Of a stretch of 64,000 bases of DNA, positions 53,495 through 63,935 are shown piece by piece. Numbering within the stretch: position 1 is the first letter of the stretch; each line of letters opens with the position of its first letter. A program made the position numbers and the translations under genes. Source of the stretch: Vreelandella populi (lineage in GTDB: Bacteria; Pseudomonadota; Gammaproteobacteria; Pseudomonadales; Halomonadaceae); the NCBI RefSeq assembly GCF_003989825.1, contig NZ_RZHE01000004.1:62001-126000 (forward strand), written 5' to 3'. The notes beneath the pieces are model-generated. The model did no database searches. It was not told the DNA's origin and worked only from the letters and a program-made list of their open reading frames with translations.

Positions 53495-54622
53495 ATGAAT
53501 ACTCGTCTAAAATTCAACCTTTGGGGACCTACCAGCCTGGCGGTTTTACTGGCAGCCTCCCTTACCGGTCCTGTGTATGCGCAAGCAACACCCGAGCAAG
53601 TAGAAAACGCTTCAGCGATCACCAGCGAAGCACTGGCAGGTGCTGAACAAGTGATTAATCAGCCCCAGCGCGAGCTTCCCCGCGGGCATTTTCGGCTACC
53701 GGACCAGGGCGACATCATCGGTGAGTACTACACCGTGACCGTTGCTGACCATGAAGAAACCCTGATTGATATCGCTCGTCGCCATAACATTGGCTACGAG
53801 GAAATACGTATGGCCAACCCGAATGTCAGCATGTGGGTACCCGGCGAAGGTACGGAAGTCGTGATTCCGGCCCGTTACATTCTGCCGCCCGCCCCGCGCG
53901 AAGGCATCGTGGTCAATCTGTCCGAACTGCGTTTGTACTACTATCCCGCTGACAAGCCCGGCATCGTCGAGACCTACCCGGTAAGTGTTGGCCGTGAAGA
54001 GTTCGCAACGCCGGTAGGTATCACGCGTACCACCATCAAGGTTAAAGACCCTGCATGGGCACCACCTGCCTCCATGCGCCGAGAAGCGGCAGAGCGCGGC
54101 GAGCCGGCACCCGCCGTAGTACCACCCGGCCCTGACAACCCCTTGGGCGAGCACGCCATTCTGCTTGCCATGCCGAGCTACCTGATTCACGGCACCAATC
54201 GGCCTGACGGCGTCGGCATGCGCGCTAGCCGCGGCTGTATCCGCATGTACCCGGAAGACATCAAGTCGCTGTACGAGCGCTTGCCAAGCGGTACTCAGGT
54301 CAATCTTATGGATGCCCCTTTCAAAGCTGGCTGGGACTCAGACGGCACCCTGTTCGTGCAGTCGTATCCGCAGCTTGAAGAGAACAAAGGCGACTTCGAA
54401 CCGCTGATCAATGCCATTGAGCGCGTGGACGCACTGACTGAAGATCAGGTTGAAGTAGATTACGAGAAGGTGAAACGCGCCGTAGAATCACCCGACGGCC
54501 ATTTTATAGCCTTGTATGGCCCTCAGGCACCGGCACCGGAGGAAGAGACACCTGCCCAGCGCAACGGTCTTTTTGAAGAAGTTGAGCTCAGCCAGGTACA
54601 GTCTGATGAAGACGATGCTTGA
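53495..54622 (+). CDS. L,D-transpeptidase with LysM-like domain (ErfK/YbiS type)
   Basis: Periplasmic enzyme forming 3-3 peptidoglycan crosslinks or linking lipoprotein to peptidoglycan. Seen: signal peptide (LAVLLAASLTGPVYAQ), a LysM-like stretch YYTVTVADHEETLIDIARRHNIGYEEIRMANPNV (about 78-130), then the YkuD domain (about 138-285) with SYLIHGTNRPDGVGMRASRGCIRMYPEDI, catalytic Cys about residue 248. An acidic tail follows. The neighbour is an Lpp/OprI-type lipoprotein ending in Lys, its possible substrate; this also matches the gene order near oprI in Pseudomonas. Confidence 0.93.
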   Translation: MNTRLKFNLWGPTSLAVLLAASLTGPVYAQATPEQVENASAITSEALAGAEQVINQPQRELPRGHFRLPDQGDIIGEYYTVTVADHEETLIDIARRHNIGYEEIRMANPNVSMWVPGEGTEVVIPARYILPPAPREGIVVNLSELRLYYYPADKPGIVETYPVSVGREEFATPVGITRTTIKVKDPAWAPPASMRREAAERGEPAPAVVPPGPDNPLGEHAILLAMPSYLIHGTNRPDGVGMRASRGCIRMYPEDIKSLYERLPSGTQVNLMDAPFKAGWDSDGTLFVQSYPQLEENKGDFEPLINAIERVDALTEDQVEVDYEKVKRAVESPDGHFIALYGPQAPAPEEETPAQRNGLFEEVELSQVQSDEDDA

Positions 54623-54723: not shown

Positions 54724-54987
54724 TTACTTCTGCATGGAGCGCTGGAACTGACGGTTCATTTCTTCGCGGCCTTGCTCAGACATCTGCAGAGCAGCTTGCG
54801 CATCGCGCTGAGCTTGGTTTGCAGTGTTCAGAGCTTGAGAAGCCATGCTGCGTGCTTCTGCGGCATCAGCCTGTGCAGATTCAGCAGTCATGCGAACTTC
54901 TTCCAGAGCGCTGGTAGAAGCACAGCCAGCCAGAATTGCCAGAGAAGCGGCAGCGGCGGTCATTTTCAGAGTAGTCTTCAAAGTCAT
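54724..54987 (-). CDS. oprI: Lpp/OprI-type alanine-zipper outer-membrane lipoprotein
   Basis: Small abundant-type lipoprotein tethering the outer membrane. Seen: lipoprotein signal with LAILAGC (Cys about 22), then a trimeric coiled-coil pattern with Ala in core positions (SAQADAAEARSMASQALNTANQAQRDAQAALQ) and a C-terminal Lys as the last residue, the site by which Lpp is joined to peptidoglycan. 87 residues; E. coli Lpp is 78, OprI 83. AAGGAG precedes the ATG. L,D-transpeptidase genes flank it on both sides. Confidence 0.88.
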   Translation of the reverse strand: MTLKTTLKMTAAAASLAILAGCASTSALEEVRMTAESAQADAAEARSMASQALNTANQAQRDAQAALQMSEQGREEMNRQFQRSMQK

Positions 54988-55196: not shown

Positions 55197-55826
55197 CTAG
55201 CGGATAACAACGCGAGTGCCAACATCAACGAGTTCTGCAACTCGCTCAATTTGTTCATTTGTCACTGCCACGCACCCTTGAGTCCAGTGGTAGCGACCAT
55301 GAATGTCGGGATCCGCGCTTCCGATGCCGTGAATTCCAATTGCCCCACCCAACGCGGTATCTTGCGGTGGATGACCATAACGACGGTAGTAGTCGAAATA
55401 GGCCTCATAATCGCCTTGCGAGTAGATGCCTTTCTCTAACGCCATTCTTGCATGGGCCGGCGTAGGATAATCGATACCGAGGAATATATGCCACCGACTT
55501 TCGTAATTAAATCGATTAATCCGAAATTCGCCTAGCGGTGTTACGTTGTCGCCTCTGACTCGCTGAGTCTTGGCACCCGATCGCCCCAGTGAAATGGGCC
55601 CATAGTGCTCAATCAACGTATCGCCGCGATAAATGCTCAACGTCGACTGGCTATCATCAACCATCAGCCATAATTCGCTGCTGTAACGGGGAATATGTGC
55701 CCGTGACAAGAGCGTTTCCACCAGATCTGTAGGTTCGGTGTTAAGCGACACATTCGACGCAGCAGCGCTTGCAACAGCTGGCCAGCTTAGAGCTAGCGCT
55801 AAAAAACGGCGGCGGTTTAATGGCAT
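55197..55826 (-). CDS. Second L,D-transpeptidase, YkuD family
   Basis: Seen: N-terminal NRRRFLALALSWPAVASA, a signal peptide with an arginine cluster that resembles a Tat motif, then LWLMVDDSQSTLSIYRG, TPLGEFRINRFN, and the active site IGIHGIGS with His about residue 166 and HWTQGCVAVTNEQI with Cys about 185. 209 residues; no LysM. Probably periplasmic, acting in peptidoglycan crosslinking or metabolite/peptide anchoring. Same strand as the lipoprotein gene, with about 210 bp between. Confidence 0.9.
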   Translation of the reverse strand: MPLNRRRFLALALSWPAVASAAASNVSLNTEPTDLVETLLSRAHIPRYSSELWLMVDDSQSTLSIYRGDTLIEHYGPISLGRSGAKTQRVRGDNVTPLGEFRINRFNYESRWHIFLGIDYPTPAHARMALEKGIYSQGDYEAYFDYYRRYGHPPQDTALGGAIGIHGIGSADPDIHGRYHWTQGCVAVTNEQIERVAELVDVGTRVVIR

Positions 55827-56560: not shown

Positions 56561-57022
56561 TTACCATTCAAGACTGGTTTCTCTGAGCGCTGCTATCTCG
56601 AGTTTGGCGGCTTCAAGGCAAGCCAGCAGCTGTGCAGCCGGATCCGTTTGGCTACCCACAGCAATCATTCCAGGGTTGGCAGACACGCGCCTGGCGGCAC
56701 CCTCGCTGCTGTGCAGCTGCTCAAGCTTGCTAACCAACCAGCCAAGCCAGCTTTCAGGCTCATGCATTACGTCACGCAGGCGCTGTAATTCAGCCAGCTG
56801 AGGCCCATCATTTGCCAACAGCTCGCGCCAGGCGTGGCTTTCGAGTCTTGCATGCTCAGTCACTTCGCGTAACAGCGAGACCAAGGCCAGCTCGAAGAGC
56901 GCCAGGGCGCTCTCTTCCAGCGCCATTTGGCGAGCCGGCGCATGCTCATCCTCCCCGACCGGCATGCTCATCAAGAGTTCAGCTTGATAAAGCAGCTGGT
57001 TAGTACGCGAACGCGGACTCAT
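56561..57022 (-). CDS. Small helical protein coupled to topA (possible DUF6586)
   Basis: 153 residues, no signal peptide or membrane segment. Seen: [13 protein letters not shown] near the start, [21 protein letters not shown] and [21 protein letters not shown], all helical. Short helical proteins sit in the same position next to topA in pseudomonads; assignment to DUF6586 is from memory and context, not a search. Its ATG overlaps the topA stop by ATGA, so it is made with TopA. Confidence 0.75.
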
Positions 57023-59646
57023 TTACGCTTATCCTCCACGTGCCATTTCCCGGCTTCATAGGTGGCCTTCCATCCGGTAGCCTTGCCCTCTTCATCGGTC
57101 ATCACGTACTGCTCTTTACTCTTGCGCGAGTAGCGAATCTGCGCAGGTCGGCCATCGGGGTCTTCACTGGGTGCCTCAAGAATAAAATGATACTTCTCAG
57201 GCAGCTCAGCAGCATGAGCTTTAAGCTCTTTCACCAGCGGCGGGCGCGTTTCGCGATTTTTGGGGAATTTACTCGCTGCCAGAAACAGCCCGCTTGCCCC
57301 ATCGCGCAGCACGTAATGGTCGTCAACCTTCTGGCAGGCAAGCTCCGGCATGGAGATCGGATCCATTTTCGGCGGTGCTACCTCGCCGCTTTTCAGCAGC
57401 TTACGGGTGTTCTTGCACTCGCTGTTGGTACACCCGAAATATTTGCCAAAACGCCCTGACTTGAGCTGCATTTCCGAGCCGCATTTATCGCATTCGATAA
57501 CCGGGCCGTCGTACCCCTTGATCTTGAACTTGCCCTGCTCGATCTCATAACCATCGCAATCAGGACTATTACCACAGATATGCAGCTTGCGGGTTTCATC
57601 AATCAGGTAGTTATCCATCGCTGTACCACACTTGGTACAACGGCGCTTGGCGCGCAGCGCGTTGGTTTCTGCCTCTTCACCGGCATCCGCTGCCACGGCT
57701 TCTTCGCCGGGGATTAGGTCAATGGTTGTCTTGCAACGCTCCTTTGGCGGCAGGTTATAACCACTGCAGCCCAGGAATACACCCGTGGAGGCGGTGCGAA
57801 TCTGCATTTTGCGCCCACAGGAGGGGCAATCAATATCGGTGGGCACCGGCTGATTGGGCCGCATGCCATCTTCACTTTCCGCCTTGGCAAGTTCATCGCG
57901 AAACTCGCTATAGAAAGCATCCAGCAACGCCTGCCAGTTACGTTCGCCCTCGGCTACTTCATCCAGGCTATCTTCCATGCGCGCGGTAAAAGAGAAGTCC
58001 ATCAGATCCGGAAACGACTCTTTCAAGCGTTCGGTCACGATATCACCCAGCTTCTCAGCGTAGAAGCGACGGTTTTCCAGCTTCACGTAGCCACGATCCT
58101 GAATCGTGGAAATGATCGAAGCGTAGGTGGAGGGTCGACCAATTCCCTGTTTCTCAAGTTCCTTGACCAGGCTTGCCTCGGTATAACGTGCAGGCGGCTT
58201 GGTAAAGTGCTGCTGGGGGTCTAACGCTTCCAGCGTCATACGGGTGCCCTTGGGCAGATCCGGCAGGCTCTGATCTTCATTTTTACCGCTGGGCTTCATC
58301 ACACGGGTATAGCCGTCAAACTTCAGCACGCGCCCTTTCGCCCGCAGATCGTAGCCATCCACCTCGACACTCAACGTACTCGACAGGTACTCCGCCGGAG
58401 TCATCTGGCAGGCCACGAACTGACGCCAAATCAACTCGTACAGACGCTCGGCATCGCGTTCCATACCGGCCAGATCGGTGGCTTTGCGCTCAACGCTTGA
58501 GGGGCGAATGGCTTCGTGAGCCTCCTGGGCGCTCTCTTTGCTGCTATAGCGATTAGGCGCCTCAGGTAGATAGCGCGCGCCATACTCATTGCCAATAAAC
58601 TCCCTAACGCTTTCCACGGCATCCTTGGAGAGATTGGTCGAATCGGTACGCATATAGGTAATGTAGCCGGCTTCATACAGGCGCTGGGCCATGGTCATGG
58701 TCTTCTTGACCGAAAAACCCAGACGGCCGCTGGCGGCTTGCTGCAAAGTCGAGGTAATGAAAGGTGCCGTCGGCTTGGAGCTTGTGGGCTTATCTTCCCG
58801 GGAAGTGATTGAAAGCGGCGCTTTGCGCAGCGCTTCGATACTTGCCATGGTGTCTTTTTCGGACGTGGGTCGATATGCCTTGCCGTCATGCCTGGCTAGC
58901 GCAAAACGGACCAGCTCGCCCTCTGGCGATACCAAGTCTGCATGCACGTCCCAGAACTCTTCGGGAATAAAGGCTCGAATATCTCGCTCGCGCTCGACGA
59001 TCAAACGCACGGCCACGGATTGGACACGCCCAGCGGAAAGCCCGCGGGCAATCTTGGCCCACAACAGCGGTGAAAGCATGAAACCCACTACACGGTCCAG
59101 AAAACGCCGTGCTTGCTGGGCTTCAACTCGAGGAATGTTCAGCGCTCCGGGCGCTTTAAATGCATCCTGGATGGCATTTTTGGTGATTTCGTTAAATACC
59201 ACTCGCTTATAGCGGCTATCGTCACCGCCAATGGTCTCGCGAAGGTGCCAAGCGATGGCTTCCCCCTCGCGGTCCAAATCCGTTGCCAGATAAACGGCAT
59301 CGGCCTTTTCAGCGAGTTTCTTTAACTCGGCCACTACCTTCTCTTTGCCGGGCAGCACTTCATAGTGCGCTTCCCAGCCATTATTTGGGTCAATACCCAT
59401 ACGCCGAATCAACTGATCCTGGCTCTTGCGCTTTTTGTACTCTGCCTTCTCTTCCGCCGACATTTTACGTGTTGCCGCGGCTTGGCGAGCGCGCTCCTTG
59501 GGGTCGGAAGCTGCCTTGCCCGAGCCGCTGGTCGGCAGGTCACGAATATGACCCACGCTCGACTTTACGATGAAATCGCTGCCGAGATACTTATTAATCG
59601 TCTTCGCTTTAGCTGGCGACTCAACGATGACCAGTGACTTGCCCAT
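57019..59646 (-). CDS. topA: TopA, DNA topoisomerase I
   Basis: Type IA enzyme that relaxes negative supercoils. Seen: Toprim domain ([19 protein letters not shown] at the start, [15 protein letters not shown] near 118), [10 protein letters not shown] and [14 protein letters not shown], the active-site [10 protein letters not shown] with Tyr at about residue 331, [21 protein letters not shown], then three C-terminal four-Cys zinc-ribbon units from about residue 610 ([24 protein letters not shown]) and a basic C-terminal part. 875 residues, near E. coli (865). The second and third zinc units look complete; the first has a longer Cys spacing. Confidence 0.98.
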
Positions 59647-59963
59647 AGTGCTCCACTTATCTATTGCTTGGACTAATCAGCCCGCGCCTGAAAACAGTAC
59701 CGCATGGGTTGAAGGAAAAATGGCTGCAAAAGAACCAGCTTTTTGCAGCAACCGACATAAACATACGGATGAAAAAATGCGCCTACCCTACCCCAGCCCT
59801 TGACTAAGCGCCAGTAGCAACCGAACAGTAGAGAACAAACCTGACTTTTTTATACCGGGTAGCTAGACACTAGACCGACGCTTGCAGATCAGCAACCCGC
59901 CGTTGCCCAGAAAACAAAACGCCCCTGCGTTTCAGCAGGGGCGTAGATAAGCAGAAAAGCTAC
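59647..59963. other. Intergenic region upstream of topA
   Basis: About 317 bp between topA and the DUF3141 gene. Contains an inverted repeat GCTGCAAAA-N9-TTTTGCAGC at 59723-59749, about 75-100 bp before the topA ATG, and the terminator of the upstream gene. No coding frame supported. Confidence 0.6.
59919..59944 (-). terminator. Terminator after the DUF3141 gene
   Basis: Perfect 10-bp ACGCCCCTGC/GCAGGGGCGT, 6-base loop, then TTTTGTTTT on the minus strand. Confidence 0.9.
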
Positions 59964-62702
59964 TTATCGCTTACGCGGCGTCTTGAGATGCGCAATATCA
60001 GCCGCGGGCTTTGTAGGCTCAGCAGACTTTTTATCGGCAGTCTTGGCAGCGGGCTTGGCAGGCTTAGCAGGCTTTTTACCGCCAGTCTTAGCAGCGGTTT
60101 TTTCAGGCTCAGCAGGCTTTTTATCGGCAGCCTTAGCAGCGGACTTTTCAGGCTCAGCAGACTCTTTCTTTTCAACCGGCAGCTTAGTCGGCCCTTGCTT
60201 AACAATCGCCTTGGTTACAACTGGATTATCTACCGTGGCGCTTGCCGTCGCTTTTTCTTCCGCTTCCGGTTTTTTGGCTTCAGGCTTGCTATCGGCCTGA
60301 GCCACCGACGCTTTGGAGGCTGCCTTGGCGGACGCCGCCTTAGATGATGCAGGCTTGGCTGTAGCTGACTTGATTGCTGGAGACTTAGTTGTTGAAGATT
60401 TAGTTGTCGAGGATTTAGACGCTGCAGTTTTATCCGTTACAAACTTGGAAGGACGCGCCTTATCAAACAACGCTTTTATTTGCGTAAAGCGTTCTGAAGC
60501 ATGCTCTGAGAGTTCACCGCTTGCCGCAAATACATGCTCGAGATTTTTAATATGCGCATCTATGTCGCTGCTACTTTGCCCAGCTAACAGCTCAGGCAGC
60601 GTATTCAGGGCCTGCTCACGATCAAGCTTCAAAATAGAGAACTGCTCACGCACCAGTCGCTTGAAGTCAGACAACTTGATGCCCGGCTCCAATTCCGCTC
60701 TTGATGCACGCAGCCGCTTGAAGTTGCGCTCATCTGTTGCTGGTGCACCGCCCAACACATAAATCAACGAGCGCATGATAGCTTCGTGCGGCCCGCCTTT
60801 AGCAATTTGATCGCGTAGTTCATTCTGGCGATTGGCCAAAAAGCGACGATGCTCTGGCTCAGCGCCCGGGCGCCTACGGTGAACATGCGCATCACCATGA
60901 AGCCCTACTGCCGCTTGAAGCAAGGGTTGGCCATAAATATCCATAAACAGCCGTTCAGTAGTGCTATCGCGCAAATCGCGCATGGCATTCAAAGAGGCGA
61001 CAATATGATCAGAGCCCATGGTTTCAAGTGCTTTGAAAAGATTGTCCTCCCCCACTTCATGACGGTTTTTACGCACGGCATCAGCCATTACCGGCAACGG
61101 CACTGATAACGGATTACGATCCGACAACAATTTATAGCCCAGGCGAATAGGATGCATCCGGCGGATAAATCGTGCGGCTTCCGGAGTCATGACTGCCTGC
61201 AACCAGGGTTGCACATAGATCCGGTACAACCCCAGGTTAATTTCTGAAAGACGGGCAACCGTGGCAAAGCGCCGATCATCATCGGCATTGTGGTGCACTT
61301 CCTGGTCTAGTTCTTCGAAATTACGTGGAGTAAATTCCAGCAGATAATCGCGCTCATAAAGCGAGGCATCACTACTGTCCGATGCCTGCGTTACCGTTGT
61401 TTCATAAAGTCCCGGCGGCAGCACATCGATGTAATCCATGTTGGCAGTAAATTCGGAATGCTCTTTACGCGAGACACTGCCCGATACAAAGATACCTAAA
61501 TGGCCAGTGGTATCATGCATGCAGTAAACAATCGTCTGGTCGTTGGCCATGATATCGTCGGTATCTTCGTAAAGATCGCGAATCCAGCCCAGCGCTTGAG
61601 GCGGCGGCGTAATATCATCACCACGAGAGCAAAACACCACCACGGGTGAACGCAGATTACGCAAGTCGATACGCCGCCCATCTCGGGTTACCAGCTGCGC
61701 GGTAGACAATCGATTACCTACAAACAAGTTATCGACTATGTATTGGATCTCTTCACCGCCCAGCACCACATGTCCGCCCCACCAGCGCTCAAAGTCAAGA
61801 TAACGCTGGCTTTCAGTATCCACATTGGCATAAAGGTGGTACTGCTTTTTCCAGTAGGTATTGGCCGGGTTCAGGCGCTCAAAGTTCTGCACCAGCCAGG
61901 CACCATCGAACAACCCGTTACCCATATCACTGGTGAACGCCGTTACCCAACTGCCGCCGGTCATGCCACCGGTATAGCGCATGGGCGCATTGCCATGCTC
62001 CCCTGCCCAGTAAGAGAGCGGCGCCCCAGCAATCAGAATAGGACCAAACACATCTGGCTCAAGCGCGGCGGCCATCATCAATTGCCAGCCTGCCTGGCAG
62101 TTACCCACCACCATGGGTTTTTCACAGATTTCTGGATGAAGTCCGATCACATGACGTAAAAAGGCAATTTCAGCCTCAACAACATCCTCAACGGTTTGGC
62201 CCGGTTCAGGATAAGGCAAGAAACCGATAAAATAGCAGGGGTGGCCAGCTTTCAAAGCCACGCCTAGCTCACTATCGGGCTTGAAACCGCCGATTCCTGG
62301 GCCGTGGCCCGCCCGCGGGTCAACCACGACAAAGGGACGTTTCTTAGGGTCAATTACCGTACCTTGCGGCGGTAGAACACGGAGCAATTCATAATTGGTT
62401 GGCTGAGGCAGCGTACGTCCATCCACCAATACTTCTGTTTCAAACCCGAGTACATTGGGTTTGGTTTGCTCCATATGCTCCAGGTACTGGTTGCCGCGTT
62501 CACGCATTACATCCAAATAAAGCACGCTGCGCTCAACGCTATCGTGCCAGTAGTCGGTCGCGGCGCGCCCAATTCCAAAAGGATCCATCAATGAGGTCAA
62601 GACGTCACTGCCTGGCAGTAGCGCTGCGGTGTCATTCGACGTCCCCGACCAGGCTTTTAGCCACGGGTTAGCGGCGAGCAGTGGATTGGCAAGAAAATTC
62701 AT
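59964..62702 (-). CDS. DUF3141 protein: PhaC-like alpha/beta hydrolase with PhaF-like repeat tail
   Basis: 912 residues. Seen: an alpha/beta-hydrolase domain (about 85-420) with FVVVDPRAGHGPGIGGF, the nucleophile elbow GNCQAG with Cys202, SRGDDITPP with Asp362/363, and TTGHLGIFVSG with His401. This Cys-Asp-His set in these contexts parallels polyhydroxyalkanoate synthase (GxCxG box and the GH motif). A DUF3141-type helical region follows (about 450-745). From about 749 to the end is a disordered Lys/Ala/Pro/Thr-rich tail with four 15-residue repeats, like the DNA/granule-binding tails of PhaF. AGGGAG precedes the ATG. Whether it makes, degrades or only binds polyester is unknown; no pha gene is adjacent. 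Confidence 0.85.
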   Translation of the reverse strand: MNFLANPLLAANPWLKAWSGTSNDTAALLPGSDVLTSLMDPFGIGRAATDYWHDSVERSVLYLDVMRERGNQYLEHMEQTKPNVLGFETEVLVDGRTLPQPTNYELLRVLPPQGTVIDPKKRPFVVVDPRAGHGPGIGGFKPDSELGVALKAGHPCYFIGFLPYPEPGQTVEDVVEAEIAFLRHVIGLHPEICEKPMVVGNCQAGWQLMMAAALEPDVFGPILIAGAPLSYWAGEHGNAPMRYTGGMTGGSWVTAFTSDMGNGLFDGAWLVQNFERLNPANTYWKKQYHLYANVDTESQRYLDFERWWGGHVVLGGEEIQYIVDNLFVGNRLSTAQLVTRDGRRIDLRNLRSPVVVFCSRGDDITPPPQALGWIRDLYEDTDDIMANDQTIVYCMHDTTGHLGIFVSGSVSRKEHSEFTANMDYIDVLPPGLYETTVTQASDSSDASLYERDYLLEFTPRNFEELDQEVHHNADDDRRFATVARLSEINLGLYRIYVQPWLQAVMTPEAARFIRRMHPIRLGYKLLSDRNPLSVPLPVMADAVRKNRHEVGEDNLFKALETMGSDHIVASLNAMRDLRDSTTERLFMDIYGQPLLQAAVGLHGDAHVHRRRPGAEPEHRRFLANRQNELRDQIAKGGPHEAIMRSLIYVLGGAPATDERNFKRLRASRAELEPGIKLSDFKRLVREQFSILKLDREQALNTLPELLAGQSSSDIDAHIKNLEHVFAASGELSEHASERFTQIKALFDKARPSKFVTDKTAASKSSTTKSSTTKSPAIKSATAKPASSKAASAKAASKASVAQADSKPEAKKPEAEEKATASATVDNPVVTKAIVKQGPTKLPVEKKESAEPEKSAAKAADKKPAEPEKTAAKTGGKKPAKPAKPAAKTADKKSAEPTKPAADIAHLKTPRKR
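59967..60147 (-). repeat. Four tandem 45-bp (15-residue) repeats in the DUF3141 gene
   Basis: Coding repeats at an exact 45-bp period near the 3' end, encoding AEPEKSAAKAADKKP, AEPEKTAAKTGGKKP, AKPAKPAAKTADKKS and AEPTKPAADIAHLKT. The DNA also repeats (GGCTCAGCAG and CTTTTTATCGGCAG recur), so they arose by duplication. Confidence 0.85.
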
Positions 62703-62951
62703 AGGGTCTCCCTAGAAGGAATGCGTTGGCGATCAACCCAAAAGCCACAATGCTGCGATGCAATATAGTTTAGGCCACTCCTTGGCTAACGTCGATGATT
62801 AGCGCTACCGATTTTATGCCGATTGTGTAACTCACCGTTGTATCAGGCAAACATGGCCAAACAGTGATAGCATTTTCATTTGGCGCTAGTGGTTTAGTAC
62901 ACCGCTTGTGTCATTCGCTGCCGGAGGCCGATTTTTCAGAGGTTGTCATGT
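62703..62951. other. Divergent spacer between the DUF3141 gene and a LysR gene
   Basis: About 250 bp, holding both promoters. An 8-bp palindrome TAGCGCTA lies at 62800-62807. No clear T-N11-A site chosen. Confidence 0.4.
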
Positions 62952-63935
62952 ATGTCATCCCCTACGCTGCTTAACCGCTTAACGTTTCGCCAGCTACAAG
63001 TATTTCAAGCGGTACATCACCAGCGTTCTTATTCCCGCGCGGCCGAACAGCTAGGATTAACTCAGCCTGCCGTTAGTGCACAGATTCGTCAGCTTGAACA
63101 GGCTCTGGGGCAGCCACTTTTTAAATATGCAGGCAAAACCCTGCATGTGTTGCCCGCAGCCGATACGCTGGCACTGTCTACCCGGGAAATTTTCGGTCAG
63201 CTTTCACGGCTGCAAATGAATTTGTCGGATATTAACGGCAAGATAACAGGCGAGCTGAACCTGGCAGCCGTTTCATCCGCGCAGTACATTGTCCCGTATA
63301 TACTGGCGCGCTTTCGCGCTCGTTATCCGGATATTCACGTACGTCTCAAGGTCTGTAACCGTAGTCAAGCGCTTGAGCGTCTGGCAGAACAGCAAGATGA
63401 CCTGGTGATCATGGCCATGGTGCCTGAAGATGATCGTCTGGCGGTCATGCCGATTATCGATAACGAGCTGGTAGCCGTGGTATGGCCCGAGCACCCCTTG
63501 CTCGAGGCACCCTCCCCAAGCCTTGCGGACTTTGCGCACCACTACGTGTTGATGCGCGAACCCGGCTCCGGCGTACGCAATGCGTTTGAGCAGCTGGCGG
63601 CTTTTCAGAAAGTGGCGCTTTTACATCACATTGAGCTTGGCACCAATGAGGCGATCAAGCAGGGTGTGATGGCACATTTAGGTGTAGCGGTACTGCCCCG
63701 GCTGGCGGTACGCCTTGAGCTTGAACAAAGGCTACTGTTTGAACTGGCGCTACCTGATTTTCCCATCCGCCGTTCCTGGTGTACGGTTTACCGTCGAGAG
63801 CGTTTTCCTACCCCGGTGGCTGAACTTTTTTTGCGCTTTGTTCGTGAGCATTTGCCGGAGTACCAGCAACATTTCAAGGCACCTTTAAGCCCGCTGCCCA
63901 GCCATGGCGTGGCCTGTCTGCCGATAGCGCCATAG
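62952..63935 (+). CDS. LysR-family regulator (CbbR-like)
   Basis: Transcription regulator. Seen: FRQLQVFQAVHHQRSYSRAAEQLGLTQPAVSAQIRQLEQALGQPLF (read in parts; HTH about residues 11-50), then an effector domain with GELNLAAVSSAQYIVPYILARFRARYPDI, RLAEQQDDLVIMAMVPED and REPGSGVRNAFEQL, as in the CbbR/CysB-like branch of the family. 327 residues from the ATG preceded by AGAGG; a TTG three codons earlier has no separate ribosome-binding site. Divergent from the DUF3141 gene, so possibly its regulator; target not proven. Confidence 0.88.
   Translation: MSSPTLLNRLTFRQLQVFQAVHHQRSYSRAAEQLGLTQPAVSAQIRQLEQALGQPLFKYAGKTLHVLPAADTLALSTREIFGQLSRLQMNLSDINGKITGELNLAAVSSAQYIVPYILARFRARYPDIHVRLKVCNRSQALERLAEQQDDLVIMAMVPEDDRLAVMPIIDNELVAVVWPEHPLLEAPSPSLADFAHHYVLMREPGSGVRNAFEQLAAFQKVALLHHIELGTNEAIKQGVMAHLGVAVLPRLAVRLELEQRLLFELALPDFPIRRSWCTVYRRERFPTPVAELFLRFVREHLPEYQQHFKAPLSPLPSHGVACLPIAP

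Follow-up and report, generated by a model that had tools for sequence, protein, structure and literature searches.

The question raised by this locus is whether a large protein with the active site of a polyhydroxyalkanoate (PHA) synthase makes polyester at all. The protein is encoded within a 64,000-nucleotide stretch of Vreelandella populi DNA (contig NZ_RZHE01000004.1, positions 62,001 to 126,000), the whole of which is here called the window. A preliminary description of the window had read the protein as a PhaC-like polyester enzyme fused to a basic tail of the PhaF type, and had regarded such a fusion as unreported. We find that it is an ordinary member of the DUF3141 or "PhaC2" family, which is already in print. 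Our tentative reading, to which we assign a probability of about 0.4, is that it is an acyltransferase of the PhaC fold that moves hydroxyacyl chains to or from a thiol without polymerising them, and that its basic tail holds it to DNA or granules by charge. The parts of the gene, all on the minus strand, are as follows.

59964..62702, minus strand: coding sequence of 912 amino acids, DUF3141 or GNCQAG-box "PhaC2" family protein (listing of open reading frames (ORFs) and profile match)
61419..62504, minus strand: PhaC-like alpha/beta-hydrolase core, residues 67–428 (predicted model and structural alignment)
62088..62105, minus strand: nucleophile box GNCQAG, residues 200–205 (sequence, model and alignment)
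61617..61619, minus strand: Asp362, aligned with the catalytic Asp of PhaC (profile alignment)
61500..61502, minus strand: His401, aligned with the catalytic His of PhaC (profile alignment)
59967..60443, minus strand: predicted disordered Lys/Ala/Pro-rich tail, residues 754–912, ending in KTPRKR (predicted local distance difference test (pLDDT) below 50, and composition)
60000..60167, minus strand: 45-bp (15-residue) tandem repeat inside the tail, 3.7 copies

The DUF3141 profile (PF11339) matches residues 54–633 from end to end (profile positions 1–582 of 582) with 928.8 bits against a cut-off of 29.7. It is the only Pfam domain found at E ≤ 1; at that level there is no match to PhaC_N (PF07167), to the intracellular polyhydroxybutyrate depolymerase profiles PF10503 and PF06850, or to any phasin or histone profile. 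PhaC models do match the protein, yet with scores far below the curated cut-offs (29.3 bits versus 365.3 for class III, TIGR01836; 20.5 versus 622.65 for class I, TIGR01838), which places the protein in neither class. It does show the traits of the "PhaC2" proteins of Halomonadaceae, namely the GNCQAG box, the triad and a C-terminal extension beyond class I PhaC. Leaving aside an identical entry and an odd partial sequence (P0030), identity is 70–86% across the best 120 of 7999 relatives, and the named relatives among these 120 are nearly all Halomonas or Vreelandella. The relative listed as Halomonas sp. TD01 (P0025) shares 80% identity over 89% of the query; with 829 residues and a calculated 92.8 kDa it equals the published mass of 92.8 kDa, and is probably EGP19504.

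Cai et al. (2011) named the TD01 protein PhaC2, noting a GxCxA box, an extended C-terminus and an identity of 19% with PhaC1; they gave a range of 81–92 kDa for it and its homologues and asked whether these form a new synthase class (PMC3227634). Christensen et al. (2021) described the GNCQAG box and C-terminal isoelectric points (pI) of 9.6 and 10.1 for the PhaC2 proteins of TD01 and O-1, and mentioned a histone-like match for that of TD01 (PMC8686332). The same source describes the basic tail of a Cobetia PhaC, so the supposed novelty of the fusion falls away. The window protein, at a calculated 100.7 kDa, exceeds the published range, and the excess is the tail. That range is descriptive and sets no defining limit, and the protein is a length variant of GNCQAG-box "PhaC2". 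It is the product of the single DUF3141 gene of its genome.

The preliminary description had suggested comparing the protein with PhaC structures and with the DUF3141 profile, and apart from the profile score given above, the comparison bears out the PhaC-like active site. The best structural matches of the modelled domain are PHA synthases, with VIA-align ranges that start at residues 67–75 and mostly end at 424–427, three of them extending to 517–520; DUF3141 has also been grouped with a PHA synthase structure in print (PMC11878206). In the predicted model Cys202 stands at the start of a helix directly after a strand, and His401 lies in TTGHLGIF. A profile alignment with 10 PhaC sequences sets Cys202, Asp362 and His401 on the PhaC Cys, Asp and His, and each of the three is present in all aligned rows of two sets (24/24 in A1 and 40/40 in A2), both of which contain the window protein and have some rows in common. 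Model and alignment together give a predicted PhaC fold with Cys-Asp-His in register, as in a PHA synthase. Residues 362 and 363 had both been put forward as the catalytic Asp; the choice falls on Asp362, since either D or N occurs at position 363.

In the sampled genomes the long form of the gene never occurs without phaC, an observation that is new here. Among 151 genomes of the family, where the long form was defined by a DUF3141 match above 800 bits, PhaC_N is present in 91 of 91 carriers compared with 24 of the 60 others (p = 4.5e-19 by Fisher's exact test, which ignores relatedness). Among 299 genomes of the phylum, with a threshold of 400 bits, the corresponding figures are 24 of 24 and 160 of 275 (p = 4.7e-6, again ignoring relatedness); 4 of these 24 carriers are also among the 91. 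One of the 91 (G430) has a weaker PhaC_N match. When short and split forms over the cut-off are counted, PhaC_N is present in 92 of 94 family genomes and missing from G336 and G414.

Several irregular copies were also seen. The DUF3141 matches of two of the 24 phylum genomes (G166 and G209) contain internal stop codons, copies with in-frame stops in two genomes (L023 and L024) are apparently decaying genes, and one Halomonadaceae genome (G309) has five copies, two in tandem and one with an in-frame stop. Ahead of DUF3141, two proteins (L020 and L021) carry a long N-terminal extension of 100 residues, which in L020 alone gives a Phasin_2 match below the threshold.

Also new is the frequent company of Pta, kinase and FabI genes outside Halomonadaceae. 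In stretches of up to 8 kb on each side of 39 named non-Halomonadaceae loci, at least one of Pta, AckA and FabI is present in 26 and all three in 16. Wide context was examined for 12 of the 20 non-Halomonadaceae phylum genomes with DUF3141 above 400 bits, and 11 of the 12 hold all three. None of the three was found in any of 41 Halomonadaceae-type stretches at the score used; topA lies within the fetched stretch in 40 of these 41. Of four plasmid stretches, one (L123) came without annotation and the other three are ordered DUF3141, phosphate acetyltransferase, acetate/propionate kinase, fabI; in plasmid stretch L124 the DUF3141 gene is missing from the feature table and a small ORF intervenes. 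Six Pta proteins, including one (L130) from a cluster with a short paralogue, score 285–321 bits to the phosphate butyryltransferase model TIGR02706 and 56–76 bits to the acetyltransferase model TIGR00651. The model of bifunctional enoyl-CoA hydratase/Pta matches four of the six over nearly its whole length and two in the Pta half alone, and a MaoC domain exceeds the Pfam cut-off in three.

Related arrangements are published: phaC-pta-ack clusters, some with fabI, occur in Burkholderia sensu lato (PMC8231600), and in P. umsongensis a DUF3141 gene lies in a cluster with phaCAB, phasin and phaR genes (PMC8601165). PhaC shares the stretch with DUF3141 in three of our loci (L097, L098 and L120). 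Short DUF3141 paralogues of about 600 residues, which do not have the C-terminal helical part, adjoin PhaC and Pta at L129:8955-10559, L130:9192-10796 and L144:6297-7901.

The PhaC-type Cys, the failed polymer tests published for orthologues, the constant company of phaC and the operon partners together lead us to place the enzyme, tentatively, in hydroxyacyl transfer on the consuming side of PHA metabolism. As in PhaC, a 3-hydroxyacyl chain would be bound to Cys202 as an acyl-thioester. Where the full operon exists, three enzymes could then convert the acyl-CoA set free into a short acid and ATP: the enoyl reductase FabI, a Pta similar to phosphate butyryltransferases and a kinase of the acetate family. 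In the species of the window, where no such partners adjoin the gene, the enzyme would work together with a separate phaP-phaC locus; the genome has one PhaC_N match, with the gene of a Phasin_2 protein just upstream of it. The basic, predicted-disordered tail would anchor the enzyme electrostatically to DNA or granules.

A number of observations weigh against this reading. The two exceptional Halomonadaceae genomes carry a short or split DUF3141 alone, with no PhaC_N, and related genomes make the co-occurrence look more independent than is warranted. None of the three partners is present in 13 of the 39 named loci, some of which lie on short contigs, or in 1 of the 12 phylum-sample loci. All six Pta scores fall below the TIGR02706 cut-off of 410.5, NCBI names these proteins phosphate acetyltransferase or bifunctional hydratase/phosphate acetyltransferase, and the single kinase that was tested belongs to the acetate/propionate type, with 43 bits to butyrate kinase TIGR02707; for these reasons a C4 substrate is a guess. 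The genome of the window has no such operon, and its one acetate kinase gene adjoins that of a 749-residue Pta of canonical type. A similar phaC-pta-ack cluster has been read as storing acetate in the form of PHA (PMC8231600). The failure of orthologues to yield PHA in E. coli may be due to a missing partner or salt, and the variability of the tail weakens any single function for it.

For the tail itself, composition and predicted confidence agree with the disordered, basic, Lys/Ala/Pro-rich segment first described. The pLDDT is below 50 for residues 754–912 and about 25–33 from residue 761 on. Counted from residue 748, the tail holds 22% K, 23% A and 10% P, with a net charge of +22 and a pI of 10.1, and its best 100-residue stretch is 77% K/A/P/S/T; of 55 window ORFs examined, the remaining 54 reach no more than 59%. 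In close relatives the reading frame is the same and the C-terminus is in most cases basic, and the tail is therefore not a frame artefact. A boundary motif served to delimit the tail in 106 of 121 close homologues (query included), and the 15 without it were dropped; the 106 tails measure 32–204 residues, with pI above 9 in 103 and at least three K/R among the last six residues in 92. All 21 tails of at least 30 residues among the 39 non-Halomonadaceae loci likewise have pI above 9. Across the 41 Halomonadaceae-type loci tail length is 11–184 residues, and the 36 tails of at least 30 residues have pI 4.3–12, above 9 in 21 and at or below 9 in 15. Some are acidic (net −15, −12 and −10 at L049, L065 and L048), and three Chromohalobacter have very short tails of 11 residues. 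The basic tail of the close relatives thus gives way to an acidic or short one in other Halomonadaceae, which is a new observation; it recurs widely yet is not required by the DUF3141 family. The tail is no PhaF domain: DUF3141 stands alone in Pfam at E ≤ 1, and the AAKP motif is absent from the window tail (0 copies, against 2 of KPAA).

These data bear on a rival reading of the tail, in which catalysis is as proposed above but the tail binds nothing specifically. It would be a linker for solubility or crowding that changes fast and has lengthened as its repeats expanded, with selection on a short basic C-terminus at most. The 45-bp repeats, the wide ranges of length and pI in Halomonadaceae-type loci and the K/R-rich ends of the close homologues speak for this reading, and we regard it as a real possibility, if one held at less than even odds. 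The prevalence of pI above 9 in close homologues and outside Halomonadaceae argues against it, as does the similar tail on Cobetia-like PhaC, which implies that basic tails recur on PHA-type enzymes. The tail is possibly best viewed as an optional electrostatic tether, with the role of an inert linker nearly as likely.

The main rival retains polymerisation: the protein would be a distinct PHA synthase belonging to a new class, an idea put forward for TD01 PhaC2 (PMC3227634), polymerising hydroxyacyl-CoA in dependence on a partner or on salt. The fold, the triad and the co-occurrence with phaC suit it, as does the report that in Halomonas 363 under PHA conditions a large phaC (2,544 bp, TIGR01836 match), apparently a DUF3141 orthologue, reaches roughly ten times the transcript level of the other two phaC genes (PMC8357295). 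Against it stand the absence of PhaC_N and the low PhaC scores, and the residue after the catalytic Asp, which is His in 10 of 10 PhaC rows and D or N in 40 of 40 DUF3141 rows. Moreover, O-1 PhaC2 gave no PHA in E. coli (PMC8686332), and a 2025 paper likewise reports none from the O-1 and DSM2581 orthologues and considered that the annotation is perhaps wrong (PMC12229310). The enzyme as a maker of polyester, as first described, is accordingly doubtful, and we consider a distinct synthase unlikely. Less probable still is a short-chain acyl-CoA or acyl-phosphate thioesterase or acyltransferase of acetate/butyrate overflow with PhaC ancestry only, to which the operon with Pta, kinase and FabI and the phosphate-stress-regulated, PhoB-controlled ORF-pta-ack-fabI operon of S. 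meliloti (as cited in PMC8231600) would point, but which sits poorly with the long form not occurring without phaC in the 91 and 24 carrier genomes and with DUF3141 lying near phaC in some loci.

The acyltransferase reading has a bolder extension, which we offer as a long shot. The GNCQAG family might stand as a third kind among PHA enzymes, acyltransferases carried on the granule and releasing polyester as acyl-CoA into a dedicated hydratase/FabI/phosphotransacylase/kinase line, so that the cell would ferment its own plastic to butyrate-type acids and ATP; the Halomonas enzyme would have lost the operon and gained a histone-like leash.

The surroundings of the gene in the window are as follows.

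62708..62713, minus strand: Shine-Dalgarno-like AGGGAG, 5 bases before the ATG (sequence)
59919..59944, minus strand: terminator-like hairpin of 10 pairs with a T-run, just downstream of the stop codon (strong hairpin)
62943..63935, plus strand: LysR-type regulator, divergent, 240 bp from the gene start (profile match)
57019..59646, minus strand: topA (DNA topoisomerase I), a conserved neighbour (profile match)

A LysR-type gene is found near the DUF3141 gene in many other Halomonadaceae loci as well. Elsewhere in the window, two YkuD L,D-transpeptidase genes (53495-54622, plus strand, and 55197-55826, minus strand) flank a small alanine-zipper lipoprotein gene (54724-54987, minus strand).

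Halomonas is an industrial chassis for PHA, and "PhaC2" or "phaC" genes are annotated there as synthases despite the failed published expression tests, so that a clear assignment would end a standing mis-annotation. If the operon-based reading is true, it would provide a route from stored polyester to short acids and ATP, and the basic tail would take its place among several independent tethers on PHA enzymes. With the evidence from operons and co-occurrence, the question of function becomes testable.

Among known systems, the PhaC2 proteins of TD01 (EGP19504) and O-1 are closest, with the same box and triad, a long C-terminus of pI 9.6–10.1 and a LysR gene nearby (PMC3227634, PMC8686332); the window protein exceeds the published 81–92 kDa through its repeat-bearing tail. 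Cobetia PhaC2 shares a disordered, basic, Lys/Ala-rich tail, with a C-terminus of more than 300 residues, a pI of about 10.3 and proposed DNA binding (PMC8686332), but it is a true class I PhaC with a SYCIG box and not a DUF3141 protein, and expression of its SF2003 homologue in C. necator PHB-4 yields PHA (PMC7175313). Three loci of one genus (g185, probably Cobetia; L126, L127 and L128) have class I PhaC frames of 947, 895 and 1015 residues with Lys/Ala/Ser/Thr/Pro tails of about 300 residues, as published for Cobetia PhaC2, and the profile search of family genomes gave no DUF3141 match in theirs. Class I PhaC structures (5hz2, 5t6o, 5xav, 9knj) have the same alpha/beta-hydrolase fold with Cys-Asp-His in register, whereas DUF3141 has neither PhaC_N nor the His that follows the catalytic Asp and is extended by about 290 helical residues, to which the window protein adds its tail. 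The Pseudomonas phasin PhaF resembles the window protein in a Lys/Ala-rich disordered C-terminal stretch; unlike PhaF as described in PMC3574117 and PMC8686332, the window protein has neither a phasin domain nor the AAKP motif, and its DNA binding is a proposal. The Sinorhizobium ORF-pta-ackA-fabI operon agrees in gene order with our loci from S. medicae and Rhizobium, in which the ORF encodes a DUF3141 protein, and the S. meliloti ORF is probably DUF3141 too; compared with that operon, the gene of the window stands alone.
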